From Bacteroidales bacterium (GTDB taxonomy: Bacteria > Bacteroidota > Bacteroidia > Bacteroidales > VadinHA17): a DNA stretch of 64,000 nucleotides. The position numbers and the translations under genes were made by a program. The number at the start of each line of letters is the position of its first letter. The first letter of the stretch is position 1. Below are positions 26,960 to 41,363 of the stretch, piece by piece. A model generated the notes under the pieces. It searched no databases and had not been told where the DNA came from. It saw only the letters and a program-made list of their open reading frames with translations. The stretch is taken from contig JAOZPG010000002.1 in assembly GCA_029932855.1 (NCBI GenBank), positions 65,714 through 129,713 on the forward strand, written 5' to 3'.

Positions 26960-27487
26960 CTACTGATATTGCGACATTCCCCATGGATATCGCTTTCGTG
27001 TAACGCAATATGAACCCTGGCTGTTCTGGTCAAGACTGACAGAGAAATATAGCTTTTCTTCATCGCCCGCATAGGGCTCAATTATTTTTATGAAATATGT
27101 CCGGGGAAGTACTCCCAGTAATTCAATATCCAGATCATAAAGGCAGTTACAATCACACAATGCACTCTTTTCAGATTCCTTAACAATTATTGTATCACCC
27201 AGCAGACTGGTTTCGCAATATAATTTTTGCGGGCAACAGTTAAAGCCTGCATTAATATGTTTGAGCAGGAGTTTGCTTTCTGCTGCTTCAAATATATAGT
27301 CGATACAACTTAATGTGTCAGACTGGCTCACATCAGACTGAGCCAAATCAGCGCTTAATGATTTTAAGCCTTTGCAATCAGAATAATTAGTGATTTTTCC
27401 TGATACCGGACCCTGTTCTTTTTCGCAACTGCTTGCAAAACAGGTGAGTATAAATAATGGTAGCATTAAATAAAATACAGTCTTCAT
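26960..27487 (-). CDS. Cysteine-rich lipoprotein of unknown function
   Basis: A 175-residue protein with a signal peptide and lipobox FASSC (Cys21). The mature part carries about a dozen cysteines, including FNCCPQKLYC and CDCNCLYDLDIEL, a pattern suggesting disulfides or metal binding. I do not recognise a named family. Small lipoproteins ending in a C-x-C-x-C-LYDL-type motif followed by a short beta-rich tail seem familiar from Bacteroidota, but that is only an impression. It lies 98 bases after the DUF4857 gene on the same strand and could be the last gene of that locus or independent. Confidence 0.75.
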   Translation of the reverse strand: MKTVFYLMLPLFILTCFASSCEKEQGPVSGKITNYSDCKGLKSLSADLAQSDVSQSDTLSCIDYIFEAAESKLLLKHINAGFNCCPQKLYCETSLLGDTIIVKESEKSALCDCNCLYDLDIELLGVLPRTYFIKIIEPYAGDEEKLYFSVSLDQNSQGSYCVTRKRYPWGMSQYQ

Positions 27488-27585: not shown

Positions 27586-28821
27586 CTAAGCAAAAGACTT
27601 GTTCGGGAATACATTAACGGCAATGAAGCCGAATAATCCCGTAAGAGCTACTATAATAAGGTCAAATATGTTATTCTTCAGACTAAAGCCTTTCTTTCTT
27701 ATGATATAAAAATGCACAAGGATAAGTAAAAGATTCAGGATCAGCCAGTTGAATCCTTTTGTTATGTCGGGGTAAAAGTCAGTAAAGGATATATTACTGT
27801 CATACATCTTAAGCTGTGCAGGGAAAATATAACTGAATATTTTTCCCTGTTTGCTGTCTGTCCTTCCTGTCCAGCTCTCGTGATACTCATCCACCTTATT
27901 ATAATCCGAATCAAGTATAGTGACATTTACATAATTATCACCTCTTATAACTACATTATAGTAAAAAAGGTTTCCGTATATCCTTAGTTCTTCCGTATCT
28001 GCATTATAATTTTCTATAGCTAATTTTGTCAGTTCATATACATCCTGACTAAGGACATAGATGTCATTATCCTCTGACACCAGGTAGTTATAAAATTTCT
28101 TATCACTAAAATCAACACAGGCAATATGCTTGAACTTTAGTCCCCCGGGAAGTTCAACTTTCTTAACAAATGGTCTGGCCTCAATCATCTTAATATGAAA
28201 AAGCTGGTCTTTTGAGTCTGTAACAAAGTAGCCTTCATCACATGATTTACGTGTGGTTGGTATGCCTGCAATCTTTTTTGCCGGGAACACAAAGCCTCGT
28301 TTTTGGAGTACGGACGTGAACATCCGGCTTTTCTTTTCATTGATCCGGTTATCGGCTGCATCTATGAACTCCATGCGCCAGCTTATGCGGAAATAATCTT
28401 TAGGCATCTCGAGGTTGGCCCTTCCCGATTCAGATTCGAACATAGGGTAAAGTCCCGGATCGGGAGCATAGATCATAGCAGGTCTTAAACGGAAGAATGA
28501 CCTTGCCTTGTTCAGTTCATGAATATCCATATACACCCCGTCAATAGTATCCGGCATAGTTCCCGATATCAGTAACTGCCGGGAATAGAACAGGGGAAGT
28601 TTCTGTTCAAACTCATCTCTTGTATATTCCCTGCCTGTATTATCCATGCGTATTGTCTTCTCACCTGTGCGCTGTATCATAAAATCATGGTCAATACTGC
28701 TGTACATGATGAATGGCGAACGAATGGGTTTATCAAATGACAGCCAGTATAGTTTTGGAATTGCTACTGCGCTTACAAGAATAGCTATTGCTACTAATAT
28801 ATATCTGCTAATTTTTATCAT
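27586..28821 (-). CDS. DUF4857 membrane protein
   Basis: A 411-residue protein with one N-terminal membrane segment (about 7-25), a long extracytoplasmic region and two C-terminal membrane segments (about 355-372 and 385-404, with a short RKKGFS loop between). The sequence matches what I know as DUF4857, a Bacteroidota family encoded beside ABC transporter genes; its function is unknown. It starts 2 bases downstream of the permease stop and is therefore co-transcribed with the ATPase and permease. It may be an accessory subunit holding the substrate on the periplasmic side, which is inference from topology and context. Confidence 0.82.
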   Translation of the reverse strand: MIKISRYILVAIAILVSAVAIPKLYWLSFDKPIRSPFIMYSSIDHDFMIQRTGEKTIRMDNTGREYTRDEFEQKLPLFYSRQLLISGTMPDTIDGVYMDIHELNKARSFFRLRPAMIYAPDPGLYPMFESESGRANLEMPKDYFRISWRMEFIDAADNRINEKKSRMFTSVLQKRGFVFPAKKIAGIPTTRKSCDEGYFVTDSKDQLFHIKMIEARPFVKKVELPGGLKFKHIACVDFSDKKFYNYLVSEDNDIYVLSQDVYELTKLAIENYNADTEELRIYGNLFYYNVVIRGDNYVNVTILDSDYNKVDEYHESWTGRTDSKQGKIFSYIFPAQLKMYDSNISFTDFYPDITKGFNWLILNLLLILVHFYIIRKKGFSLKNNIFDLIIVALTGLFGFIAVNVFPNKSFA

Positions 28822-28823
28822 GA

Positions 28824-29492
28824 TTACATCTCTCCTTTTCTGAATCTGTATGCTGAGAATAAAAGTGAAATACTGCTCAATAAGGTTATTAAAGTCAGCT
28901 TGAGGTTAATAGGTTCATAGCTTCCTGCAAGACCTGTCTCGAAGAACAGCAATAGAAAGGCAGCGGCAATAATGAAGTAAGCGATGCGGTATTTCCATAT
29001 TGCCTCAAGAATTATCAGGCCTGCCATGAAGTATGCTGCAAAACCTGCAAGGAACCAGGGGATGACCGATATAATTGCCAATTTTACTATCTCTGCTGCA
29101 AAAAACTGGTTGCTAAGTCCCAGGAAGATCAGGAACACCAGGGAATAGCTGATAAGCAGGCTTGCTGTACCATAGGCCAGCATCATTATAAGTATCCTGT
29201 TTTCCCTTAATGGTAAATGAAAAGTCAGCTTGATCCGCTTATCGGTGATTTCAGGAATGTATTGTGATGATGCCAGTGCCAGTGCTATTATCAAAGGTAC
29301 AAACTTCAGGTAACTGAAGTAATGACTGTTTTGAAAAAGTATCTGGTACCAGTAATTGCTTGCTTCCTTAAATGACATATTATGCTGGACAGTAAGAAAG
29401 ATATTCCCTACTGCCAGGATGGCTATTAATGTTAAAAGGATGATAAACCATCTGGTCTTTATCCATTCTTTATATATTACAGATTTGAACAT
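28824..29492 (-). CDS. ABC transporter permease
   Basis: A 222-residue integral membrane protein with about six predicted transmembrane helices (first near 14-32 after MFKSVIYKEWIKTRW, later ones including FVPLIIALALASSQYIPE and LISYSLVFLIFLGLS). The KEWIKTRW-type start and the ITDKRIKLTFHLPLRE cytoplasmic loop are typical of ABC-2-type permeases of Bacteroidota. It lies between the ATPase gene (70 bases upstream) and DUF4857 (2 bases downstream). No periplasmic binding protein is encoded nearby, which argues against a classical importer. It should form the channel with the 29563 ATPase. Confidence 0.87.
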   Translation of the reverse strand: MFKSVIYKEWIKTRWFIILLTLIAILAVGNIFLTVQHNMSFKEASNYWYQILFQNSHYFSYLKFVPLIIALALASSQYIPEITDKRIKLTFHLPLRENRILIMMLAYGTASLLISYSLVFLIFLGLSNQFFAAEIVKLAIISVIPWFLAGFAAYFMAGLIILEAIWKYRIAYFIIAAAFLLLFFETGLAGSYEPINLKLTLITLLSSISLLFSAYRFRKGEM

Positions 29493-29562
29493 ATTTATTA
29501 GTGTTTTTCTGTTATTGTTTTATTCTGTTATTGTATTATCCTGCTTTAGTGATCAGCTGTAC

Positions 29563-30450
29563 TTAGTATTTGCCTGTTAATCCTATAAATGCATCTTCCA
29601 GTCCCATTTTTACTTCCCTGAAATTTTTAAAAGCTATGCCTTTTTTGTCCAGGAATTTCCTGATATTATCTTCAGTATCATAGCTGTACAGCTCTATATT
29701 ATTTTCAATTGTATCTACATTAACCACGAATTCTTCTTTTGACAGATCAATGCCTGATCTTTCTGTCTCGAAGTTGAACTGCTTAAATGTTCTCATGAAC
29801 TCATCTACAGGCGTCTGGGTCAGCACCCTGTTATAATCCATTATCAGCACATCATCAATTAATCTTTCCATATCCTGGATGATATGAGAGGTGGCAAAGA
29901 TGGTTTTGTTCCCGGCTTTGGAATAGTTGCGCAGGTAATCTATGAAGAGTCTCCTGTATCCGGGATCCAGGCCCATTGAGAAGTCGTCGAGTATGAGCAG
30001 ATCGGGATTTTGCGCCAGTATCAGTCCAAGTGCTACCTGCGACCTCTGTCCGCAAGACATGCTTGATATTTTCTGTCGGGCTGTTACTTTAAGTTTGGAC
30101 ATCAGTTCCCAGTAAGGCTTGCTGTCCCAGTCGGGATAAAAACCGGAGTAGAATTTCTCTATCTGGTGTATATCCATAAAGGCGTATTGAATATGTCCCT
30201 CGAGAAGGAAGCCTATACGGCTTTTTGTGTGGGGACTAAGTCTCTGGGAGTTCTCACCAAATATCAGGGCCTCGCCGCTTCGTGGCTGCAGAAAACCGTG
30301 AAGTATATTTATGGTTGTGGTCTTGCCAGCTCCGTTTTTACCAAGCAGGCCAAGTATCCTTCCCTCACCAACACTGAAGTTAAGGTCTTCATAGACCATC
30401 TTTTTACCATAGTAGTGGGTAAGATTATTACATTCTATAACAGTATTCAT
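29563..30450 (-). CDS. ABC transporter ATP-binding protein with atypical motifs
   Basis: A 295-residue nucleotide-binding subunit. Walker A is GKNGAGKT at 37-44. The signature loop reads MSCGQ (131-135) instead of LSGGQ, and Walker B ends LLILDDFSMGLDP, so residue 156 is Asp where the catalytic Glu normally sits. The His switch ATSHIIQDME is present. The C-terminal about 90 residues form a separate regulatory-type extension. The gene starts 10 bases after the DUF6850 stop and is followed by the permease. Both motif changes are conservative but could slow ATP hydrolysis; I recall similar DDFSMGLDP motifs in this subgroup, so they may be lineage-typical rather than damage. Confidence 0.92.
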   Translation of the reverse strand: MNTVIECNNLTHYYGKKMVYEDLNFSVGEGRILGLLGKNGAGKTTTINILHGFLQPRSGEALIFGENSQRLSPHTKSRIGFLLEGHIQYAFMDIHQIEKFYSGFYPDWDSKPYWELMSKLKVTARQKISSMSCGQRSQVALGLILAQNPDLLILDDFSMGLDPGYRRLFIDYLRNYSKAGNKTIFATSHIIQDMERLIDDVLIMDYNRVLTQTPVDEFMRTFKQFNFETERSGIDLSKEEFVVNVDTIENNIELYSYDTEDNIRKFLDKKGIAFKNFREVKMGLEDAFIGLTGKY

Positions 30451-30460
30451 ATATTATTCA

Positions 30461-32014
30461 TTAAAAAATTACACCTGTACTAAAGCTGAAGATCGTCCTG
30501 TGCCGGTCATTATCCGCTAAGTACAGATCAATACTTGTATTAAAAAAATATTTGCTAAAGATCTTATTTATCTCTGTCTCCCATCCCAGGTCAATAGAAG
30601 GAGCATAATAACCGGCAGTCGTGAAAATATGATCGGGAAGAAGCAGCTCATTATAAAAGAAACTGTCCTCTGCAAAATCCAGGCTTGCTGAGATATTTCT
30701 CTTATACTTTAGTCCGCATGATATTGATAGCACCTGCCGGCCTATGTAGAATGACCTGCCCATGTCCAGTGAAGCACTAATATTGGCATATCCTTCTTTC
30801 CTGTCCGGAATATAATAAGACTGTTTGTAAGAATTGTAATTAAGAATAAATCCCACTTCATAGTCTCTTAAATATAAGTCCTTCATCTTTATTAAGCTGT
30901 AAGCCAGGGATGCATCCAGTCTTGAGGCATCAAATTTCTCTTCTTCAGCATAGGTCACCCAGTTGGTGGCACCTGTTGTGCCCGATGTTTCAAGCCTCTG
31001 TATGATCTCTGTACCCAACATTCCACTGATTTTAAGGCCTGCATCCAGGTAGTGTATAAATGAGTTTTTGCTTATAGTTGTTGTATTAAAAGCTTCCATG
31101 CTGTTTATGTCTAACCTGGAGTCGTTTTTAATATACGACCATGATGCATTTCCGGCCTTCCTGCCGTCATCTGCTGTTTCGGTGGCGTACTGAAGTTTTA
31201 TTGCAGACATGTTGTTAATATTTCCATGCTTATAATTTAACTGCCCTTCGGTACCTATCCTGTTTTGTTTATAGAGGCGGTTGAATGATCTTGCTTCATG
31301 GAATATGTAAGTTCCCAGACCGTGCATCTGGAAGAAATCATGCTCTTTGTTTGCTTCAATTATGTCTATCTCTATGTCTTCATTATAATAGCTGTACAGC
31401 AGGTTCACCCCTATCTTAATTGAAGGCAGGCTAAATACCAGTCCCGGTGATAGCGACAGCTTAAGTACTTTGTTCATTGGCCGCGGATCACGGTCCTGGG
31501 TGGCAAGTCCCACATCCAGTGAACCGGCCAGGCCCAGCATTATCGCATGACCGAGGGGAGTGCTCATCTTTCCTTCTATAGAAAAGAGTTCCCTGTCATA
31601 AACATCACCTCCGATGCTGTCTGTCAATAGATAGGGGGTTTCCCGGCCCGGGTCGTTTATATTTGTATAATCTGTGCCTTTTTCAAAGCTTTTATTATAA
31701 TTAAAGCATCCATAGAAGAGGCTGTTGCCTATTTTGGAGTAGCTTCTGGTACCAAAGCTGTAACTATTAAGTTTGTCGCCATGCTGAACCTGTTTGTAGT
31801 CACCCTTTTCGGAATAATAATCCAGTTTCATCTCGCCGGGGTATAGTTCGGGATTAAAGGCCATTCCTGCCGGGTTGCTCCCGGACAGCCATGGATTAAG
31901 CAGCCTGATAATATCGAATGAGCCCTGTGACACATAGCTTGTGCTGTCCTGGCCTGCAGCAGTGGCCAGAAGAAGATGAATTAACAGGGCACTATATAAT
32001 AGCTTAGTACTCAT
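30461..32014 (-). CDS. DUF6850 outer-membrane beta-barrel protein
   Basis: A protein of 517 residues from MSTKLLYSALLIHLLL, with a signal peptide ending at about TAAGQ (22). The rest is rich in alternating amphipathic strands with aromatic girdle residues and ends in FSFSTGVIF, the terminal strand of an outer-membrane barrel. I match it to DUF6850, a family encoded beside DUF4876 and TonB-dependent receptors. A Met 8 codons upstream (32038) is possible, but the chosen start gives a proper signal peptide. It overlaps the end of the DUF4876 gene by 11 bases, which implies translational coupling. Function unknown; a second pore or surface partner of the receptor is plausible. Confidence 0.82.
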   Translation of the reverse strand: MSTKLLYSALLIHLLLATAAGQDSTSYVSQGSFDIIRLLNPWLSGSNPAGMAFNPELYPGEMKLDYYSEKGDYKQVQHGDKLNSYSFGTRSYSKIGNSLFYGCFNYNKSFEKGTDYTNINDPGRETPYLLTDSIGGDVYDRELFSIEGKMSTPLGHAIMLGLAGSLDVGLATQDRDPRPMNKVLKLSLSPGLVFSLPSIKIGVNLLYSYYNEDIEIDIIEANKEHDFFQMHGLGTYIFHEARSFNRLYKQNRIGTEGQLNYKHGNINNMSAIKLQYATETADDGRKAGNASWSYIKNDSRLDINSMEAFNTTTISKNSFIHYLDAGLKISGMLGTEIIQRLETSGTTGATNWVTYAEEEKFDASRLDASLAYSLIKMKDLYLRDYEVGFILNYNSYKQSYYIPDRKEGYANISASLDMGRSFYIGRQVLSISCGLKYKRNISASLDFAEDSFFYNELLLPDHIFTTAGYYAPSIDLGWETEINKIFSKYFFNTSIDLYLADNDRHRTIFSFSTGVIF

Positions 32015-33191
32015 AAATCCATGGTTTGGGATCGGCATCCTTTAAAAAATCTTCAGTCGAATTATTTGTGTCCTGATAAATATATCTCCCGTCAATAATC
32101 TCTTTTACTTTTCTCCTTATGCATTTACCTGATCTTGAGCCTGCCTCAACATAGGTGTATCCTGCATCCAGCTCTATGGGGAAGCGCTTATAGATAGCGT
32201 GTGCCTCATCCCAGGTGACCTCAACGGCATCTATTACATACTCATTTGGTATCTTGCCATAGAACCTGCTTGGAATATCCGGCTTGCAGATCAGGTTATT
32301 ATTAATAAAATCTTTTCTTTCCTCTGCATTACCGGGTATACGTATAATTGCTATGGCGCTGCCCCCCCTGGTATGAAAAACATAATCGCTGCCCCTGTAT
32401 GTGAAGAGGTCCTCTATCATATTTTCCGCAAAAGGCCCGTCTATATCGTCGCCCGATATTGTTTCAACCCAAAACTCAAAATCGGCATATTCGAGGTTAA
32501 CAGGACTGAGGGGGTTGCCCAGGCTGTCATCCTGGTGGTTTATTGCATCTCTTGCAATTACAATGCTGTTGCCGGGTAGTATGGGGTAATCATTCCCTTC
32601 TCCGGGGATGGTCCATATAGCGCGTCCAACTATGGTGTCGCTTATAAATTCCCAATAATTGTCTGACAGTGAGTAAGACTCATGCTCAAAGACCGAGATT
32701 CCATCGGCATATTGTGTAAGTCCGGAGTTATTATATATCTCAACATACTGGTCCGCCGAATACTGTTTGCCGGCAGGTGTCAGGCAGCCGCTGTAATAAT
32801 ATTCTTTAACTACCAGGGCGTTTGTCTTGCTTATCACAACCTCCACCGTGTCGATTATGTCTGAGAATACATCCAGGAGTAAGAGCCCGTTAAGGTAATA
32901 TGCCTTTCCGTCTTCGCCGAATGAATGTATCACAGTGGCACTGTAAAACCCGGGTTCAATATTTTTAAATGTTACATCTCCTTCAGCAGTGGTGTATTGA
33001 GTATGGGTATAATTCTTAGTCAGGTTGTTTAATACTACCCTGGCACTGTCACGGTTCTGAAGGGACACTTCCTCACCGAAATTAACCTTTAGCTCAATAG
33101 TATATGAATTATAATCAGCCACTTCTTTTACACAGGATGTGAAGATGAACAATAATACAGCTATATATGTCAGGTGTAATTTCATTTTCAT
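32004..33191 (-). CDS. DUF4876 lipoprotein
   Basis: A 395-residue lipoprotein with lipobox FTSC (Cys20). An N-terminal beta domain (about 30-130) resembles a carboxypeptidase-regulatory or Cna-B fold. The middle (GKQYSADQYVEIYNNSG) recalls a lamin-tail domain, followed by DUF4876-type sequence. It starts 3 bases after the stop of the TonB-dependent receptor and overlaps the next gene by 11 bases. By position and anchoring it takes the place SusD-like lipoproteins have beside SusC, but it is not a TPR SusD fold. It may bind the ligand at the surface and hand it to the receptor, which is inference. Confidence 0.83.
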   Translation of the reverse strand: MKMKLHLTYIAVLLFIFTSCVKEVADYNSYTIELKVNFGEEVSLQNRDSARVVLNNLTKNYTHTQYTTAEGDVTFKNIEPGFYSATVIHSFGEDGKAYYLNGLLLLDVFSDIIDTVEVVISKTNALVVKEYYYSGCLTPAGKQYSADQYVEIYNNSGLTQYADGISVFEHESYSLSDNYWEFISDTIVGRAIWTIPGEGNDYPILPGNSIVIARDAINHQDDSLGNPLSPVNLEYADFEFWVETISGDDIDGPFAENMIEDLFTYRGSDYVFHTRGGSAIAIIRIPGNAEERKDFINNNLICKPDIPSRFYGKIPNEYVIDAVEVTWDEAHAIYKRFPIELDAGYTYVEAGSRSGKCIRRKVKEIIDGRYIYQDTNNSTEDFLKDADPKPWIYEY

Positions 33192-33194
33192 AAA

Positions 33195-35936
33195 TTATAA
33201 ACTGACTTTTATCTCAGCACCGAAATATATTGAAGGATTTCTCCTTGTATAGCTCTCGCCCCTGGTGTACTGATACATAGGCCTGTAGTTAAAGAAATTA
33301 TTTACATAAAAGCTTAGCTTCATCTTATCTGCTATTTCCTTGGATAGCCTGATGTTAGACACAAACAGGGGAGGCATCTTTTCTGTCAGGTAATAAAAAT
33401 CGCTTTTTGTCTTCACATACTTCTTATAGTCAGGATCCTCTTTCATCTCCTCTGTAAATTCAGTTATATTCCCGTCTTTATCATAAAGGTAGAGTGGTAC
33501 TTCATCATATTCAGGATAATAATATTTATTGAACCATATCACCTGTATGGTTGTTGAGAGAATCATCCTCAGCTGGGGTATCTGGGTGACCATCCTAAGG
33601 CTGGTATTCAGCCTTTCGCTCACCTTGCTCTCGCCTGCCGGGTAAACACCTATTTCTTTATACTGTTCACTTGACTGGCTGCCGGGCAATACATCATAAT
33701 CTAAAATACTGTAAAAGCGTGTGGTCTTCAGCCATGCTCCGTCAACAGTGAATGAGGTATATAGCCGGTCTATTTTTCCGAAGTTAAAGCTGAACTCTAC
33801 ACCGCTTTTTATGCTTTCCTTATTATTTACCGGAGTCCTGTATGAAAGGATATAATCGTCATAGTCTTTGGGGAGTGTTGAAGGATCTGGCTTTTCTCCT
33901 TCGGGGACACTGTCGGTATTATACTTGTAACGATCTATAAACTCATATTTTGAAATAAATTCATATCCATCGCTGAGTTTTTCTTTAAATGCCGTGATAT
34001 TTCCTGTTATATTACCTATTCTGAAATCCATGCCCAGCTCTTTCTTCAGGTTTTGATAGGGTTTCAGTTCAGGGTTTTCAGTATTATACTGCATAGAATT
34101 GAAAACTATCATCTGTGTGGCAGGGTCTCCGGTATAATAATCAAGCACAGGCAGGTCGTAATATGCCTTATCGGGGTATAAGAATATTAGTGAAGGAGAT
34201 CTGTATGTTTTTCCTGTCCCCATATTTAAAGAAAGGTACTTTAGCAGCCTGTTGTTGGCCTTGTTAATTAATTCATACTGGACATTGAACCTGGGTTCGA
34301 GGTAGAATCCTATATCTGAGTTAAAAAGTCCTGAAGGCTGGTAATTATTAAGACGGACACCTGTCTGCAGGACAAGCTTTGTGCCTGAGAAAGGAATAAT
34401 CAGCTTGTTCTCGGCATAGAGTGAATAAGTTTGCAGATTAGGTATATCCCTGAATGAACGGGGCCGGCTGCTGTTCCTTGCAATAAAAGGAGGATTGTTG
34501 ATATCATATATCTGTCCATCCCCGTAGTTCCCGTCCATCCTGTATTCTCCCCCGAGCAACAACTTATTTATTATGCCATTTTCAAAATTCAGGAATTTGT
34601 CGAGAGTTATTTGAGAGAATATATTTACCGGTTTACCGTCAATGCGGAGTTCTGTAAGCTGTTCGGTGGGAAGGAATATTCCTTCGTTCTCACCTTCTGT
34701 AAGTGACAGGGAAATCGCATTTACACCACCGCTTGAGCTGCGATACATTTTCTGGTAACTTTCCTGTCTGGTGTATGATGCGGAAAAGCTGTATTGCAGA
34801 TTTGAAATAAATTTCCTGTTAAGCGACCATTTGGAGTTAAGATTGAACCTCAGTCCTTTGTCCTGCGACCTGTATTCCTCCTCGGGGGTTAGTGCATCAG
34901 GATCGGTCTTTGTATTGTCTATTGTTGTGAAATAATTGATTTTTGTATTCAGCGATAACGGAGAGGTCTTTTTGAGAAATACTCTAGACCATGCAGCCTG
35001 TCCCGTTAACCGGTCATAGCCTTTATACTTGCTTCTTACATCAGAGAAGGAAGAGAGGTAGTCGAAGCTGAGGTTCAGGAAGCCTTTATCTGAAGGGAGC
35101 TTAAAACCCTTGTTCAGTGCAATTTGCTTTATCTTTGGATCTGTTTTCAGTTTTATGGCAAGAGGCTGGTAGCCTGCCTTGGTTGTTACTGATACAACTC
35201 CCGATGTAAGGTTGCCGTAAATGACCGAGGGTATGCCTTTAATTACCTCCACCGACTCTATATTATCTGTGGATAGTTGCCTCAGGTCAACACCTGTTCC
35301 TGCTACGTTGCTGAATTCTTCATTCCTGCCTGTTGCTGTTGACATGCTCTGCAGGTTGGCGGTGTTGGATACAGGGGCATTATCAACTATTATGGCTGTT
35401 CCCATAGCGGTATTGTTATCTGTACCTATTTCTCTTATGGATATTTGCTGTGGCTTTGAGAGATCGGGGTTTTCTGCTATATTGCCCGGGAGCAGTTGCA
35501 TTATATCATTCAGGCTGCTGGGCTGAACGTGCTCGATGGCCGCAGTACCAATGCTTGTGGATGTTGCCATTTTGCTGCCGTTTTTTGCCAGTACATTCAC
35601 TCCCTCCATCTCAAAGCTTGTGGGTACAATCTTTATGATCAGTTGTTTTTTCAGGTACTGATCGACACTTACAGGGGAAGAGTATGGTTCATAGCCCAGG
35701 TACTGTATCTGCAGGGTATAATTTTCCTGTATGATATTCACGAATTCAAAAAGGCCGTTCTCATCAGTGATGGTCCAGCGTTCTGTCTCTTTCAGGTTTA
35801 CGGCAGCGGCAATGATGGTCTCGCCGGTTTTTTTGTCAATCACTTTGCCCTTTATACTTACAGTCTCCTGGGAATATACATGGCCTGCAAAAATGCCTGA
35901 TAAGAATAAGAGTAATATGGAAGCGGTACGGCCCAT
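33195..35936 (-). CDS. TonB-dependent receptor
   Basis: A 913-residue outer-membrane receptor. It has a signal peptide (about 1-22), a carboxypeptidase-regulatory-like domain (about 25-105, VSIKGKVIDKKTGETIIAA), a plug (about 120-240, with DNIESVEVIKGIPSVIYGNLTSGVVSV in two overlapping parts) and a 22-strand-type barrel ending RNPSIYFGAEIKVSL. This is the siderophore/metal-type layout rather than SusC. It leads the receptor-DUF4876-DUF6850-ABC ATPase-permease-DUF4857 run, with gaps of 3, -11, 10, 70 and 2 bases. A very strong terminator hairpin ends only 7 bases upstream of its ATG, so transcription needs read-through or an internal promoter. Confidence 0.94.
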   Translation of the reverse strand: MGRTASILLLFLSGIFAGHVYSQETVSIKGKVIDKKTGETIIAAAVNLKETERWTITDENGLFEFVNIIQENYTLQIQYLGYEPYSSPVSVDQYLKKQLIIKIVPTSFEMEGVNVLAKNGSKMATSTSIGTAAIEHVQPSSLNDIMQLLPGNIAENPDLSKPQQISIREIGTDNNTAMGTAIIVDNAPVSNTANLQSMSTATGRNEEFSNVAGTGVDLRQLSTDNIESVEVIKGIPSVIYGNLTSGVVSVTTKAGYQPLAIKLKTDPKIKQIALNKGFKLPSDKGFLNLSFDYLSSFSDVRSKYKGYDRLTGQAAWSRVFLKKTSPLSLNTKINYFTTIDNTKTDPDALTPEEEYRSQDKGLRFNLNSKWSLNRKFISNLQYSFSASYTRQESYQKMYRSSSGGVNAISLSLTEGENEGIFLPTEQLTELRIDGKPVNIFSQITLDKFLNFENGIINKLLLGGEYRMDGNYGDGQIYDINNPPFIARNSSRPRSFRDIPNLQTYSLYAENKLIIPFSGTKLVLQTGVRLNNYQPSGLFNSDIGFYLEPRFNVQYELINKANNRLLKYLSLNMGTGKTYRSPSLIFLYPDKAYYDLPVLDYYTGDPATQMIVFNSMQYNTENPELKPYQNLKKELGMDFRIGNITGNITAFKEKLSDGYEFISKYEFIDRYKYNTDSVPEGEKPDPSTLPKDYDDYILSYRTPVNNKESIKSGVEFSFNFGKIDRLYTSFTVDGAWLKTTRFYSILDYDVLPGSQSSEQYKEIGVYPAGESKVSERLNTSLRMVTQIPQLRMILSTTIQVIWFNKYYYPEYDEVPLYLYDKDGNITEFTEEMKEDPDYKKYVKTKSDFYYLTEKMPPLFVSNIRLSKEIADKMKLSFYVNNFFNYRPMYQYTRGESYTRRNPSIYFGAEIKVSL

Positions 35937-35943
35937 TTTGAGA

Positions 35944-35981
35944 AAAATAAAAGGGGTTTTCCGGAAAACCCCTTTTATTTT
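35944..35981 (-). terminator. Perfect 19-bp palindrome terminator/attenuator
   Basis: Positions 35944-35962 and 35963-35981 are exact reverse complements around a CCGG centre, and the stem carries A/T runs that give a T-rich 3' end in both directions. It lies 13 bases after the stop of the T9SS surface protein and 7 bases before the receptor start, between two same-strand genes. It is either a partial terminator or an attenuator for the receptor operon. Confidence 0.88.
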
Positions 35982-35994
35982 ATTATTTAAAAGA

Positions 35995-38661
35995 TTATTC
36001 CTTAATTAACTTTTTAGTATTTACTTTTCCTTCTTTATCATAGAATGAAATAAAATATATTCCGCCTCTTAAGCTGCCCAGGTCTATTTCCATCTCAGGC
36101 TCAATACCGGATTCTATTTTAAGCAGTGTCATTCCTGTAACAGAGCTGATCACCAGCCTTTCCATCCTGTCGGCATTCTTAATGTAAAGAGTGTTCTTAA
36201 CAGGGTTGGGATAGAAGCTGGCGCTATTTTCCTCTAATTCATTCACGCTTACAAGCACTGTTACTGTTACTGTCCACTCCTGTGTGCTTTCGTCCCAGCC
36301 TGTTACTGTATAAACCACAGGGCTTGTAAAGTCTTGTGCTACTGAGGTGTCGGGACTTATTGTTGCATGTTCTGAAATTTCAATAAGAGGTTTAAGCGAT
36401 GAAGGATCAGTGCCCGGAACAACATTGATTGCAATCGTATGATTATCTGCATCTATTACAGCATCACTGTCCTGCTCATCAAGTACAAATGAAAGAATAT
36501 CTTTTTCCGGTGGTGTGAGGTTCCATAATGGTATCTTATAAAGATTACTCTTTGCCAGGGCAACAAGTGAATTGTTCAGTACACCACCTATCTTCCAGAT
36601 GGTACTTCCCGGGTAACAGCTGGTCCATGTAGCTCCCCTGTCGAATGAAACTTTCGATTTTGTCGAGCTTCCAAGAACTACATAGCTGCTGTCATTCACT
36701 TTGTAGAAGCCGTTTCCACCGCCTATTGAAGGAAGCATTGAATAGTGAATTCCTCCGTCATGTGTCTCAAATACACCATCAACAGAACTTGTGAAATACC
36801 ATTCCAGTCCATTATCAATACAATGCATTGAGGTCAGGTAGAGGGTGCTGTCATTCTGGGCATCAATGCTTGCCTGGGCAAGGGGTGGATACTGGTCAAT
36901 AAATTCCTGTCCTCCATCTATAGTCTTCAGGAATATTGTGTTACCAACGATATATCCTGTAGAAATATTATCGAAGAGTATTTTTGTTACATAACTTGAT
37001 CCGAAATCCTTAGTTACTGATGTCCATGTATCTCCGCTGTCGATTGTTTTAAATACCCTTGAATGATACAGCTTATTATCATAACCTGCTATAGTATCCA
37101 GCCATGTTATATAAGCATATAGGGTTGAGTCATTAATGCATTCAAGTTCTGTGGGACTCATGCCGTAACATGCATCCGCCAGGTTGGGATTTAATGAGGG
37201 ATCTGTCTCACCTGCACCAATATTCCTGTAATCGAGGAAGCTCCATGTTTCCCAGTTGTCTGTTGATTTGGCTATCAGTCCGTGGCCATAAACATCATGA
37301 TTGGGTGAGCTTGACGGGTAGTTAATAAAATACAGACGTCTTGTGCTTGCATAAGAAGTGCCGTCTAAATAACTCAGGCTTACGTCACTCCAGTCATATT
37401 CGGGGTATTCTGCAGTGAAAAGTTTGGGTAGTTCTGCTGCATCCCATGTAAGTCCCCCGTCTGAAGTTGTAACAATTGTTTCACCATATCCTGCAATAAC
37501 AGCATGTGTTCCATCAATTACATGCATCTTTTGCATATTCTCACCATCTTTCAGTGTTTGAGTGACCCATGTTGAAGTGCCTGTTTTAAGGTCTGCAACA
37601 GCTATCTTATACGCATTAGACTTACCAAGTCCATAGAGTGTGTCATTTACAACACCTCCTATTTCATAACAGGTAGCCCCGGGATAGCAGTTAGTCCATA
37701 TTAGTCCTCCATCAATTGTGACTTTTGATTTTGTGGATGTCCCAAGCACCAGAATAGTATTTTCATCAACTTTGTAAAGGTCATTTCCTCCCGTGGGTAC
37801 TCCTGTGCCTGTAAGCTTGGTAAATGATTGTCCCTCATCAACTGTTAAATAGAGTCCGTCTGATGTTGAGGAAATATAAACTTCATTTTTGCTTACTACT
37901 GTTGCATCAGCAGCATAGATTGTTGAGTTTGAATTGGCTGCTACCAGGTTAGGATATATATCTGTTACAGCAGTTGTTGCCAGATCTACTTTTAAAAGTT
38001 GGTTTGAACCGCAAAGATAAACGCTGCTGTTGCTTGCCTCAATGGCATATGGTGTTTTGTTATCATCGGTGATTGACTGCCATGTAACACCTCCGTCAAT
38101 TGTCATGAACGTACTGTTATATGTTACTTTGCCAGCGGCTGCATAATCCCACCAGTACCATTGTAAACCAATAAATGCCGTATCTGCCGAAACGGCTTCA
38201 ACTGCATAAAAGTGCATAGTATAGCATCCTTCTGCATTGGGGTTAAAGGCTGGATCATCTCCTGTACCTATGCCGGATATGTCGGCATGTTGCCATGTTG
38301 CGCCATTGTCGGTTGTTTTTAGTAAGAGTCCCCGGGTATATACATCCGGCTCTCCACCCGATGGGTTATTAACGACTTTTGGATCGCCTGCACATGCATA
38401 TCCTGTCCCGTCGTCAGTTATACTGATGTCGCCAAAATCATATTCTACGTCTAACAGGGGAACATCATTCCATGTTTCCCCGGTATCTGTAGATTTTACA
38501 AATGTCCTGCCATAGCCAACCAAAGTGACAGCATTGTCGTAAATGCTCATCTCCTTCAGGTTGTTGTTGGGACTGATCAACTGTTCCTGCCAGTTGAATG
38601 TCTGAGCAATGACTGAAAATGAAACAATCACTGCCAGTGCCAGAAGTGTAAATTTTTTCAT
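35995..38661 (-). CDS. T9SS-exported surface protein with duplicated BNR/sortilin-like domains
   Basis: An 888-residue secreted protein with a signal peptide (1-19, ending VIAQ). Two homologous halves of about 350 residues each follow (about 20-365 and 370-715), each built of beta-propeller-like repeats with SxDxGxTW motifs. The halves share blocks such as TRGLLLKTTDNGATW / GHGLIAKSTDNWETW and CYTMHF / CYGMSP. A bacterial Ig-like domain follows (about 720-800), then a T9SS type A sorting domain (FYPNPVKNTLYIKNADRME to KKLIKE). It sits between the polyferredoxin (68 bases upstream) and the TonB receptor. Substrate unknown; it may capture ligand at the surface. Confidence 0.88.
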   Translation of the reverse strand: MKKFTLLALAVIVSFSVIAQTFNWQEQLISPNNNLKEMSIYDNAVTLVGYGRTFVKSTDTGETWNDVPLLDVEYDFGDISITDDGTGYACAGDPKVVNNPSGGEPDVYTRGLLLKTTDNGATWQHADISGIGTGDDPAFNPNAEGCYTMHFYAVEAVSADTAFIGLQWYWWDYAAAGKVTYNSTFMTIDGGVTWQSITDDNKTPYAIEASNSSVYLCGSNQLLKVDLATTAVTDIYPNLVAANSNSTIYAADATVVSKNEVYISSTSDGLYLTVDEGQSFTKLTGTGVPTGGNDLYKVDENTILVLGTSTKSKVTIDGGLIWTNCYPGATCYEIGGVVNDTLYGLGKSNAYKIAVADLKTGTSTWVTQTLKDGENMQKMHVIDGTHAVIAGYGETIVTTSDGGLTWDAAELPKLFTAEYPEYDWSDVSLSYLDGTSYASTRRLYFINYPSSSPNHDVYGHGLIAKSTDNWETWSFLDYRNIGAGETDPSLNPNLADACYGMSPTELECINDSTLYAYITWLDTIAGYDNKLYHSRVFKTIDSGDTWTSVTKDFGSSYVTKILFDNISTGYIVGNTIFLKTIDGGQEFIDQYPPLAQASIDAQNDSTLYLTSMHCIDNGLEWYFTSSVDGVFETHDGGIHYSMLPSIGGGNGFYKVNDSSYVVLGSSTKSKVSFDRGATWTSCYPGSTIWKIGGVLNNSLVALAKSNLYKIPLWNLTPPEKDILSFVLDEQDSDAVIDADNHTIAINVVPGTDPSSLKPLIEISEHATISPDTSVAQDFTSPVVYTVTGWDESTQEWTVTVTVLVSVNELEENSASFYPNPVKNTLYIKNADRMERLVISSVTGMTLLKIESGIEPEMEIDLGSLRGGIYFISFYDKEGKVNTKKLIKE

Positions 38662-38729
38662 AAGCTTGGTTTTTAGTTGATAAATATTGTTTTGTGTTTA
38701 ATATTTAAGAAAGTTGTTTTGATAATTAG

Positions 38730-40670
38730 CTATTTCTTTTTCAGGATTATCCCTTCTTCCGGGAAGCTGAAGGGGCTTTTAATTTTGCCGGTTTTGCCGT
38801 TTGAATATGTAAAACTCAATGTGTCACTATTCAGCAAGTTATATATTTTTTCCGGCTTTGTCATACTGTCGACAAATGAAATTTCAAGCATCTGTATATA
38901 ATCTTCGTTCAGTAGCGTTTCAAACTTTACTATGCCGGCATCATTTGACAGGTGACTGACCATATACTGATAGCGTTTGCGCAAAGCAGTGTTCCTGGCC
39001 AAAGGAAGGGTATAAATGCTCACTATTGTACTGTCGTATTTATTAAAGCTATTAAAATCTACTTTATAGGGAGTAAACATCAGGGAAATATATTCACCCC
39101 TTGAGATGGATGATGTCTTTATTTTACCAACCACCTCATATTTTAACACCACCTCATTGCTTTTCCCGGCGGCTTCCCAACTGAGTGTTTTCGATTCCAG
39201 TATTTCAGTCAGTTCATCGTCATTTATTTCAGACTTAGCCGGGAAGTATATCCTTACTATAACCGGACAGGCATACTCTGACAGAAGTCCTATGGCATCT
39301 GTTTTTTGCTGTAGCAGTTTTGCCAGGTAACTAAAATCATAGCTGTCGAAGAAATTTTCAAGCAGCACATCAATAACTTTAACACTATCTATATCCTTTG
39401 CCAGAGCCCGAAGCGGAGCCTTAGCGGGTGTAAATAATTTTTCTTCTATTTTTTCCTTTGTCAGCACATCGGGATCGTAATATATTTTCACCTTGTGGTC
39501 TTCAACATATGTTGCAACGCCATAAACACCTTTAACTCTTTTCATACTGTTGGCAAAAGCTTTGGAACTGCCATAACACTTTATATTCTTAAGTCCTGAG
39601 CGGGAAAATATCTCTGCATTGGCCATCTCTTCAGCCGGGTACCATTTTTGGTCTATAGTGGGTATTTCCCATACCGATTCAAGGAGTAATCCTATGGCGA
39701 ACAGTACTATCACTGCTACCGGAGGCAACCATTTCAGGTAAGTACGTTTATTTATCTGCATCGTATCTTTTTCAGGACACACAGGCAGGCAGTCGCCACA
39801 GAGGTTACAATCAACATGTTTTACTGTTTCAAGACTTGCAACATCAATGCCCTGGGGACAGTTAATGGTGCAAAGCTGGCAGCTGGTACAAGTATCTGCA
39901 TTACGTGTAATTACCGCAACAGGGAACAGTCTGCTTCGCATGCCCAGCAGTTCTATAAGGTAGCCGCCGGCACTGGCTACTGCTACCGGCCATACATATG
40001 ATATTTCAACGCCGGCAAGCAGGAGGCCTATATATATGATCAGTACCGCAATAAAAAAACCTGTGAACTTAAAGATATTGGAAATGGCTCCCAGGGGACA
40101 CAGGTACTTGCACCAGAATAACCTTATAAAAACAGAACCAAGTATCACTAAGGCTATTGTGATAATGGCATAAAGCACAACCACATCATTGTCAAAACCC
40201 GATGCAAGAGCGTAAAAAGGATCATATTCCTTACAGAAGAGTTCGTTTGAAGCAAGGGTGAAATATAAGGTGAGAAAAAGTAATATATACTTTAGTGACC
40301 TCAGGAGCTTGTCGGTAATTCCTTTTATTGTAATCCTGAGCTTCAGCTTATCACCAAATGAACCCAGCCACTCACTTATGGTACCAATGGGACATATAAA
40401 TGAACAGAATAATTTACTGAACAGGAAAACGCCAATGATCAGGAGCACACCCATAACTATCTGGGCGCTTGTCATTGTACATGCCAGGGAATTATTAAGC
40501 AGGTAGCTGCCCAGCGCCTGTATCCCGCCGAAAGGGCAATATGCTTCAAAGTCGGGTGTATAAGCCTTATTTAAGAAGCCCAGGCCTGCTACTACAAGTA
40601 TTGCAAATATCACGCCCCACTGTATGATCTTTCTGGGCCAGTTGGTGTTTTTACGTATTCTCTTATTCAT
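38730..40670 (-). CDS. NapH/NosR-type membrane polyferredoxin with HMA-like domain
   Basis: A 646-residue inner-membrane electron-transfer protein. It has about five N-terminal helices and YCPFGGIQAL near 45. The two C-x3-CP membrane motifs are C89-C93 (CSFICP) and C187-C191 (CKYLCP). Two 4Fe-4S clusters follow (C261/264/267/271 and C288/291/294/298), then a further helix (about 314-331). A C-terminal extension of about 300 residues begins with an HMA-like segment (NIKCYGSSKAFANSMKRVKG, about 361-415) that keeps one cysteine (C365) instead of CxxC. It is the first gene of the run that continues to the TonB receptor and ABC transporter, so it may reduce a metal or complex during uptake. This role is inferred. 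Confidence 0.9.
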   Translation of the reverse strand: MNKRIRKNTNWPRKIIQWGVIFAILVVAGLGFLNKAYTPDFEAYCPFGGIQALGSYLLNNSLACTMTSAQIVMGVLLIIGVFLFSKLFCSFICPIGTISEWLGSFGDKLKLRITIKGITDKLLRSLKYILLFLTLYFTLASNELFCKEYDPFYALASGFDNDVVVLYAIITIALVILGSVFIRLFWCKYLCPLGAISNIFKFTGFFIAVLIIYIGLLLAGVEISYVWPVAVASAGGYLIELLGMRSRLFPVAVITRNADTCTSCQLCTINCPQGIDVASLETVKHVDCNLCGDCLPVCPEKDTMQINKRTYLKWLPPVAVIVLFAIGLLLESVWEIPTIDQKWYPAEEMANAEIFSRSGLKNIKCYGSSKAFANSMKRVKGVYGVATYVEDHKVKIYYDPDVLTKEKIEEKLFTPAKAPLRALAKDIDSVKVIDVLLENFFDSYDFSYLAKLLQQKTDAIGLLSEYACPVIVRIYFPAKSEINDDELTEILESKTLSWEAAGKSNEVVLKYEVVGKIKTSSISRGEYISLMFTPYKVDFNSFNKYDSTIVSIYTLPLARNTALRKRYQYMVSHLSNDAGIVKFETLLNEDYIQMLEISFVDSMTKPEKIYNLLNSDTLSFTYSNGKTGKIKSPFSFPEEGIILKKK

Positions 40671-40800: not shown

Positions 40801-41247
40801 CTATAGTGTGAATTTACCTGATCTTTCCTTTTTTTCCAGTATGCCTGATAAATATTTTTCGGCTTCTTCCCTGGTTTTGAAAAGATCTCCCTCTGATTCC
40901 CACCATTTATCTCCTGCCGAGATACCCATTTTAGTACATCCTTCCACTTCGGCAAGGTTTATGGTCTCAAGCGATTTCATTCTTATACTGTCGCTTTTTA
41001 TCCTTAGTATCCTTGCCTGTATTACGGCCCCGTCCTCATATCCGCCGTCAGGATTTACCAGTACCACAAGCCCGTAACAAATAATGCCTTCCTCAGCCCA
41101 GCTTCCTATTCTTTGTTGCAAGTCATCATTAAGTACAGCACTTTCTTCTTCATACTCATATACTTCTCCGGCTTTCTTTGATGAGCTGGGATTGCAGCCG
41201 GATAATAATATTGCTGCCAGGGTGATAACTGAAAATAATTGCTTCAT
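40801..41247 (-). CDS. Small lipoprotein, family not recognised
   Basis: A 148-residue protein with signal peptide and lipobox ILLSGC (Cys18). The mature part has an acidic N-terminal segment (YEYEEESAVL) and a compact mixed alpha/beta region with CYGLVVLVNPDGGYEDGAVIQARI and ETINLAEVEGCTKMGI. It ends in an acidic/basic helix of about 35 residues (WWESEGDLFKTREEAEKYL). I do not recognise a domain. It precedes the polyferredoxin by 130 bases on the same strand and could be co-regulated, but no pathway link is visible. Confidence 0.7.
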   Translation of the reverse strand: MKQLFSVITLAAILLSGCNPSSSKKAGEVYEYEEESAVLNDDLQQRIGSWAEEGIICYGLVVLVNPDGGYEDGAVIQARILRIKSDSIRMKSLETINLAEVEGCTKMGISAGDKWWESEGDLFKTREEAEKYLSGILEKKERSGKFTL

Positions 41248-41289
41248 GATTTTATTTTTTACAGGTCATTATAATTAAGACGCATAAAC

Positions 41290-41363
41290 CCGGATAAACC
41301 GTCACTAAAGTGCAATATGTAGAAAGCCGGATAAGCCGTCACTAAAATACATTATGTACAGAA
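41290..41363. repeat. Two-copy 37-bp direct repeat
   Basis: Two adjacent imperfect copies, starting with CGGATAARCCGTCACTAAA at 41291 and 41328, continue as TRCAWTATGTA plus AGAAA. They lie in the 325-base gap between a minus-strand lipoprotein gene and the plus-strand dipeptidase. The rest of the gap is AT-rich and shows no gene. Confidence 0.6.

Follow-up and report, generated by a model that had tools for sequence, protein, structure and literature searches.

A polyferredoxin in a conserved TonB-dependent envelope gene cluster of Bacteroidales and its possible part in reductive metal acquisition

What does an inner-membrane iron–sulfur protein do in a run of genes for surface, outer-membrane and transporter proteins? 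The question is raised by a locus in a 64,000-nucleotide stretch of a Bacteroidales genome (contig JAOZPG010000002.1; called the window below, all positions being counted over its whole length), in which eight open reading frames (ORFs) form a tight minus-strand run with short gaps or overlaps at 27586–40670, preceded by one upstream gene on the same strand. The order of transcription is g13 (a lipoprotein gene), the polyferredoxin FdP, a type IX secretion system (T9SS) propeller protein, a TonB-dependent receptor, a DUF4876 protein, a DUF6850 protein, an ABC ATPase, a permease and a DUF4857 protein. The unit was interpreted as a system for TonB-dependent metal acquisition, most likely of a ferric (siderophore-type) complex or heme, with a built-in reductive step; a probability of roughly 0.55 was assigned to this reading. 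It rests on gene content, conservation, topology, cysteine pattern, domain triplication and a PepSY_TM alternative, all from our own analysis, and on published work on iron regulation and on PepSY_TM reductases. In Bacteroides thetaiotaomicron and Porphyromonas gingivalis, loci built in this way rank with the genes that respond most strongly to iron starvation.

The initial annotation of the window had proposed eight genes with this order and spacing, and their families were confirmed by Pfam. The unit is longer than was then supposed: it is headed by a conserved gene, g13 (40801–41247, minus strand), which lies 130 bases upstream of FdP and encodes a 148-aa lipoprotein with two conserved cysteines (CYG ... 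GC-x-x-MG). The conservation survey covered 393 genomes of the order, of which 51 have DUF4857, and took in neighbourhoods within 14 kb; neighbourhood genes were called by a simple ORF-length method and then clustered, and contigs were often short. The 51 DUF4857 loci held the ABC gene in 48 cases, the permease in 45, the receptor in 43, and DUF4876 and DUF6850 in 37 each, which bears out the earlier impression that the three DUF genes cluster in Bacteroidales. Among 198 genomes, DUF4876 was present in 26 of 27 with DUF4857 versus eight of 171 others (Fisher p 2e-24). In 73 loci DUF4876 was the next gene after the receptor, at a median distance of 16 bp, and in 69 DUF6850 was the next after DUF4876. 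The permease was flanked by the ABC gene and DUF4857 in about 75 loci, with median gaps of 9 and 2 bp, and homologues of the T9SS protein came directly after FdP in 23. Median gaps for the main gene pairs ranged from 2 to 91 bases.

FdP homologues matching over most of the length were found in about 41 genomes, nine of which also carried DUF4857. In all nine the two genes were either linked (seven, on one contig) or located at contig ends in a manner fitting a broken locus (two, G072 and G367). Among named genomes, 80 FdP loci were detected. The complete unit, with or without genes for a sigma factor, a small protein and an anti-sigma-like protein between g13 and FdP, recurs in Draconibacterium, Maribellus and many metagenome-assembled genomes; Calditrichota carry a polyferredoxin-type cluster in a different gene order, with FdP last. 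Ten g13 homologues were found in the order survey, most of them adjoining FdP, and g13 heads the cluster in most Bacteroidales loci of the FdP type. The initial annotation had named a lack of co-occurrence of the polyferredoxin and the DUF genes in other genomes as the outcome that would tell against it; this is not what was found, because FdP adjoins the DUF genes in many other genomes of two phyla. Its view of the locus as one system spanning several envelope layers is supported.

FdP (646 aa; 38730–40670, minus strand) has two Pfam Fer4_5 matches. Loop charges and an AlphaFold model (mean pLDDT 84) place seven transmembrane helices, with the N-terminus inside and the C-terminus outside. Sixteen cysteines are invariant in 60 of 60 homologues; by the predicted topology 12 face the cytosol (C89, C93, C187, C191 and eight ferredoxin cysteines) and four the periplasm (C45, C64, C146 and C365). 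Such a division across the two membrane sides would be expected of a transmembrane electron wire with the cysteines holding putative clusters. The protein has the general NapH-like polyferredoxin pattern, i.e. two CxxxCP motifs and a cytosolic 2×[4Fe–4S] segment, invariant in the 60 homologues, and it shares with CcoG (FixG/RdxA) and NapH/NosR the character of a CxxxCP-type membrane protein with two ferredoxin clusters. It differs from them in its additional periplasmic-side cysteines and three HMA-like domains, and it has neither the Ig-like tail of CcoG nor the FMN domain of NosR. Scores against the NapH models were below cut-off (TIGR02163, 54.1 against 213 bits; NF007013, 52.8 against 234 bits). 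The Pfam scan gave no FMN-bind match and the NosR model scored 35.7 against 1000 bits; no FixG Ig-like domain was matched in Pfam or NCBIfam, and no cbb3 oxidase genes were seen in the cluster. The Ig-like tail can be absent from CcoG-type proteins, for example Escherichia coli YccM (PMC7558416). No solved relatives of the membrane part were found in PDB comparisons.

The 310-residue periplasmic part of FdP was modelled as three tandem βαββαβ domains (residues 353–419, 429–500 and 550–631), which are mutually related by profile comparison (P 3e-7, 3e-6 and 7e-11, each a single comparison). The first resembles the copper-binding HMA domain of MNK1 (PDB entry 2k1r; TM-score 0.64 over 60 columns, Foldseek E 0.38). 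It retains one of the two usual cysteines (C365) and the other two domains retain neither. The metal-domain-like segment noted earlier is weak by sequence (Pfam HMA, PF00403: E 0.0095, 16.7 bits, under the cut-off of 24.8, with the CxxC site absent) and clearer by fold, and FdP contains not one but three domains of this kind.

What says most about the role of FdP, and had escaped the initial annotation, is that in most relatives a PepSY_TM-like protein takes its place. In 32 of the 51 DUF4857 loci a 190-aa PepSY_TM_like_2 protein (PF16357), a lipoprotein in which a CxHxCxH motif is conserved, or both, were encoded nearby. FdP was present in seven DUF4857 loci (plus the two at contig ends), and none of the 51 contained both FdP and the PepSY/CxHxCxH module (Fisher 4e-4, a value that does not count independent replacements). 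FoxB and other PepSY_TM proteins are known to reduce ferrisiderophores in the periplasm (PMC13038864). FdP would be like FoxB and HiuB in passing electrons across the inner membrane to a periplasmic metal complex, with a TonB-dependent receptor nearby; unlike these heme-based proteins it is of the iron–sulfur kind and unrelated in sequence. The comparison sets a conserved core apart from two alternative redox modules of the inner membrane, and gives the DUF genes a testable context. The window operon itself lacks PepSY_TM. The sole copy found in its genome lies on another contig (L222:7739-11441), where FeoAB is directly followed on the same strand by the CxHxCxH lipoprotein and PepSY_TM_like_2 pair; this position is suggestive of ferrous iron. 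A general link of the pair to FeoB was ruled out, FeoAB adjacency being seen in this genome only among the places listed. Mostly the two genes of the pair form a unit of their own, which is present in many genomes.

Published expression data point in the same direction. The B. thetaiotaomicron locus BT3625-33 (DUF4857, ABC ATPase, PepSY, fimbrillin-like protein, DUF4876 and TonB receptor) is upregulated 37–128-fold in iron depletion and PG1019-22 of P. gingivalis (DUF4876 and receptor) 21–214-fold (PMC10434189); the B. thetaiotaomicron locus is also upregulated in a colitis model (PMC10434189), and a P. gingivalis DUF4876 gene is hemin-repressed (PMC10470040). The window locus has the receptor–DUF4876–ABC–permease–DUF4857 make-up of the BT3625-33 type. 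By annotation, BT3625-33 resembles it in DUF4857, the ABC ATPase, DUF4876 and the receptor, and differs in having PepSY_TM proteins and a fimbrillin-type protein, with no polyferredoxin and no T9SS propeller; PG1019-22, again by annotation, shares DUF4876 and the receptor. The B. thetaiotaomicron xenosiderophore system XusABC (BT2063-65), which is iron-induced and has a PepSY protein, likewise combines a TonB receptor with a second surface protein, but this is a DUF4374 protein in place of DUF4876, and neither ABC/DUF4857 genes nor a polyferredoxin accompany it. The Capnocytophaga iron capture system is another outer-membrane iron system of Bacteroidota; described as a polysaccharide-utilisation-type locus with icsA and icsC-H, it is set apart here by that description and not by sequence. 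To call the window locus undescribed, as the initial annotation did, is too strong, because loci built in the same way already count as part of the iron stimulon of B. thetaiotaomicron and P. gingivalis. The outer core is a known but uncharacterised iron-stimulon locus. As far as we found, no description exists of the polyferredoxin form, its triple HMA-like tail, its occurrence in two phyla or the way it alternates with PepSY_TM at the operon level. In the literature searched, DUF4876 and DUF4857 were met in three papers, as table entries only, and DUF6850 was not found.

Of the surface and outer-membrane components, all encoded on the minus strand, the T9SS protein (888 aa; 35995–38661) is a duplicated β-propeller of the Ycf48/BNR type. 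The duplication reported earlier is real, with an identity of 37% between the two halves of 370 aa (E 4e-60). An N-terminal hydrophobic segment (residues 4–22), taken as the signal peptide, and a C-terminal sorting domain (Pfam Por_Secre_tail; TIGR04183, 25.8 bits against a cut-off of 23, i.e. just above the NCBIfam threshold) mark it as T9SS cargo. The receptor (913 aa; 33195–35936; Pfam TonB plug) matched siderophore-receptor plug domains among PDB profiles, an alignment confined to the plug and N-terminal part and not used to infer a substrate. Its partner is the DUF4876 lipoprotein (32004–33191; Pfam, 150 bits, cut-off 27.9), the ORF of which is overlapped by that of the DUF6850 protein, a predicted outer-membrane barrel (30461–32038; Pfam, 277 bits, cut-off 27).

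DUF4876 loci without DUF4857 often continue with a secreted protein that has HEAT repeats and matches C25 (gingipain-like) at a borderline score; such a protein follows receptor–DUF4876–DUF6850 in many genomes (L246–L251, L158–L163 and L183), sometimes in two or three copies. Elsewhere FdP and receptor/DUF4876/DUF6850 genes occur together with S46 and/or M16 peptidases and without the ABC genes (L104, L123, L130, L131, L186, L207 and L208), an arrangement reminiscent of protein-bound iron piracy. Since the outer-membrane set is found with varied partners, often proteases, it forms a separate module.

The inner-membrane part comprises, again on the minus strand, an ABC-2 type ATPase identified by Pfam (29563–30450), a 222-aa permease with six helices predicted from its hydrophobic segments (28824–29492) and the DUF4857 protein (27586–28821; Pfam, 299 bits, cut-off 25). 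The nearest NCBIfam models to the ATPase were PmtA, GldA and DrrA, and it fits no curated family there (138 against 350, 120.6 against 402.6 and 119.5 against 312 bits, respectively). The DUF4857 model (pLDDT 89) has one N-terminal transmembrane helix, a β-rich periplasmic domain of about 320 residues and two to three C-terminal helices; a PDB search returned generic β-propeller matches only (TM-score under 0.3), and no fold was assigned. In L067 and L100 the ABC–permease–DUF4857 genes, with DUF4857 present twice, stand behind two SusC/SusD pairs, DUF4843 and a PKD-type protein; here the inner-membrane part is recruited by another uptake system.

Taken as metal acquisition, the unit might operate as follows. 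At the surface, the T9SS propeller and the DUF4876 lipoprotein would capture the ligand, or whatever carries it, and the receptor with DUF6850 would bring it into the periplasm. FdP would pass electrons from a presumed cytosolic donor via cytosolic [4Fe–4S] clusters, through the ferredoxin segment and then a C89/C93/C187/C191 cluster, to a periplasm-facing cysteine site (C45, C64 and C146; C365, in the first HMA-like domain, may be near), where the metal would be reduced and perhaps retained by the HMA-like domains and the g13 lipoprotein. Released Fe(II) could enter through FeoAB, which is present in the genome. The ABC ATPase, permease and DUF4857 protein might supply the energy by which the stripped ligand is released, transferred or expelled. 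We infer the substrate, the clusters, the electron donor and direction, the roles of the ABC genes and g13, and the hand-over to FeoAB. A redox step on a metal, already suggested by the initial annotation, remains the best reading of FdP. More tentatively, and with rather less confidence than in the uptake function, FdP might represent a new class of dedicated periplasmic metal-complex reductase, with an all-iron–sulfur wire and three HMA-like metal- or ligand-handling domains, serving TonB-dependent iron uptake in anaerobes where others use heme-based PepSY_TM reductases. The comparison of the loci points to an iron–sulfur route for reducing imported metal without heme, which would suit heme-short anaerobes.

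Several observations weigh against this interpretation. The B. thetaiotaomicron and P. gingivalis loci were matched to the window locus by annotation and not by sequence, and the iron-response data come from these two species and from no organism of the polyferredoxin type. CcoG, the membrane polyferredoxin that is a proven Cu(II) reductase, did not reduce Fe(III) (PMC7558416), and the HMA-like domains hint at copper-type chemistry. The DUF4857 tree needs just one change between the PepSY_TM and FdP types; their mutual exclusion therefore does not reflect many independent replacements, and repeated independent swaps of FdP for PepSY_TM are ruled out. One locus without ABC genes (L203) combines both types, and the PepSY pair is also present elsewhere in polyferredoxin-type genomes. 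Genome-level co-occurrence of FdP and DUF4857 is weak (nine observed, 5.3 expected), so linkage alone is claimed. Finally, many FdP homologues, among them most of those at 35–45% identity, are located away from these genes. On the FdP tree the linked proteins do not form one clade and those of Calditrichota nest among unlinked ones; the link is therefore either old and lost in many lineages or has arisen more than once.

These unlinked homologues are what would be expected if FdP were simply a neighbour of unrelated function. We consider this improbable: the linkage is kept in Bacteroidales and Calditrichota despite different gene orders, with gaps of tens of bases, and in one genome with a split locus (L096 versus L253) FdP stays beside the ABC/DUF4857 genes. 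Nor is it probable that the locus serves assembly instead of uptake, with FdP, the ABC ATPase, permease and periplasmic protein acting like NosR with NosFYD and providing electrons, together with a cofactor or sulfur, for the maturation of a metalloprotein at the surface or in the periplasm. The types of part are the same (a NapH/NosR-like polyferredoxin, an ABC-2 ATPase, a six-helix permease and a β-rich periplasmic partner), but no NosD or NosY homology was detected, the NosR-type FMN-binding domain is missing from FdP and most relatives have the ABC genes with no polyferredoxin; the tight link to a TonB receptor and the iron regulation favour uptake.

Among uptake functions, the metal might be copper or another soft metal and FdP a cupric reductase, the periplasmic counterpart of CcoG. 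Besides that precedent, the likeness of the HMA-like domains to those of copper ATPases, the operon copies in which an ECF sigma factor and an anti-sigma-like protein are joined by a possible metal sensor, a small cysteine-bearing protein anchored in the membrane, and a TonB copper transporter with a PepSY_TM protein known in Bordetella would all suit it. The strong response of same-make-up loci to iron and the loss of most of the usual HMA cysteines make copper an unlikely substrate. Somewhat less unlikely, though still well short of an even chance, is acquisition specifically of heme or hemoproteins, in which surface proteins and proteases would free heme, the receptor would import it and FdP would reduce heme iron or aid iron release in the periplasm. 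Hemin repression of a P. gingivalis DUF4876 gene speaks for heme, yet it is ambiguous: hemin also supplies iron, and its regulation therefore cannot separate the two. The C25-like secreted proteins and S46 and M16 peptidases that often accompany receptor/DUF4876/DUF6850 would fit protein-bound ligands; against this, the C25 match is under the Pfam cut-off and the window operon has no protease gene.

Candidate regulatory DNA was found at two places on the minus strand. Just upstream of g13 lie two 36-base tandem direct repeats (41286–41321 and 41323–41358), a candidate operator; both copies match one pattern without mismatch (chance expectation 0), and only these two copies occur in the genome. 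A search for a shared operator upstream of g13 across loci yielded only A/T-rich words that clearly exceeded shuffles. Between the T9SS and receptor genes is a perfect 17-bp hairpin (35944–35981); apart from it, scans for σ70 promoters and terminators gave results close to chance. Hairpins of unrelated sequence occupy the same interval elsewhere (12 of 19 loci exceeding all 60 shuffles), and strong hairpins also occur between DUF4876 and DUF6850 (15 of 27 loci). They are perhaps partial terminators that set protein ratios.

In L064, L065, L068, L071, L132, L138, L141 and others, genes for an ECF sigma factor, a small cysteine-bearing membrane-anchored protein and an anti-sigma-like protein lie between the g13-type gene and FdP; the set looks like a metal-sensing regulatory trio. 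A local ECF sigma factor was ruled out as regulator of the operon in the window, as the sigma/anti-sigma genes of its relatives are missing here. At the other end of the window operon, 98 bases downstream of DUF4857, an ORF at 26960–27487 encodes a cysteine-rich putative lipoprotein of 175 aa that is not conserved along with the cluster. In one subgroup (L156–L174), TetR, TolC and RND efflux genes lie directly upstream of the lipoprotein/FdP unit.

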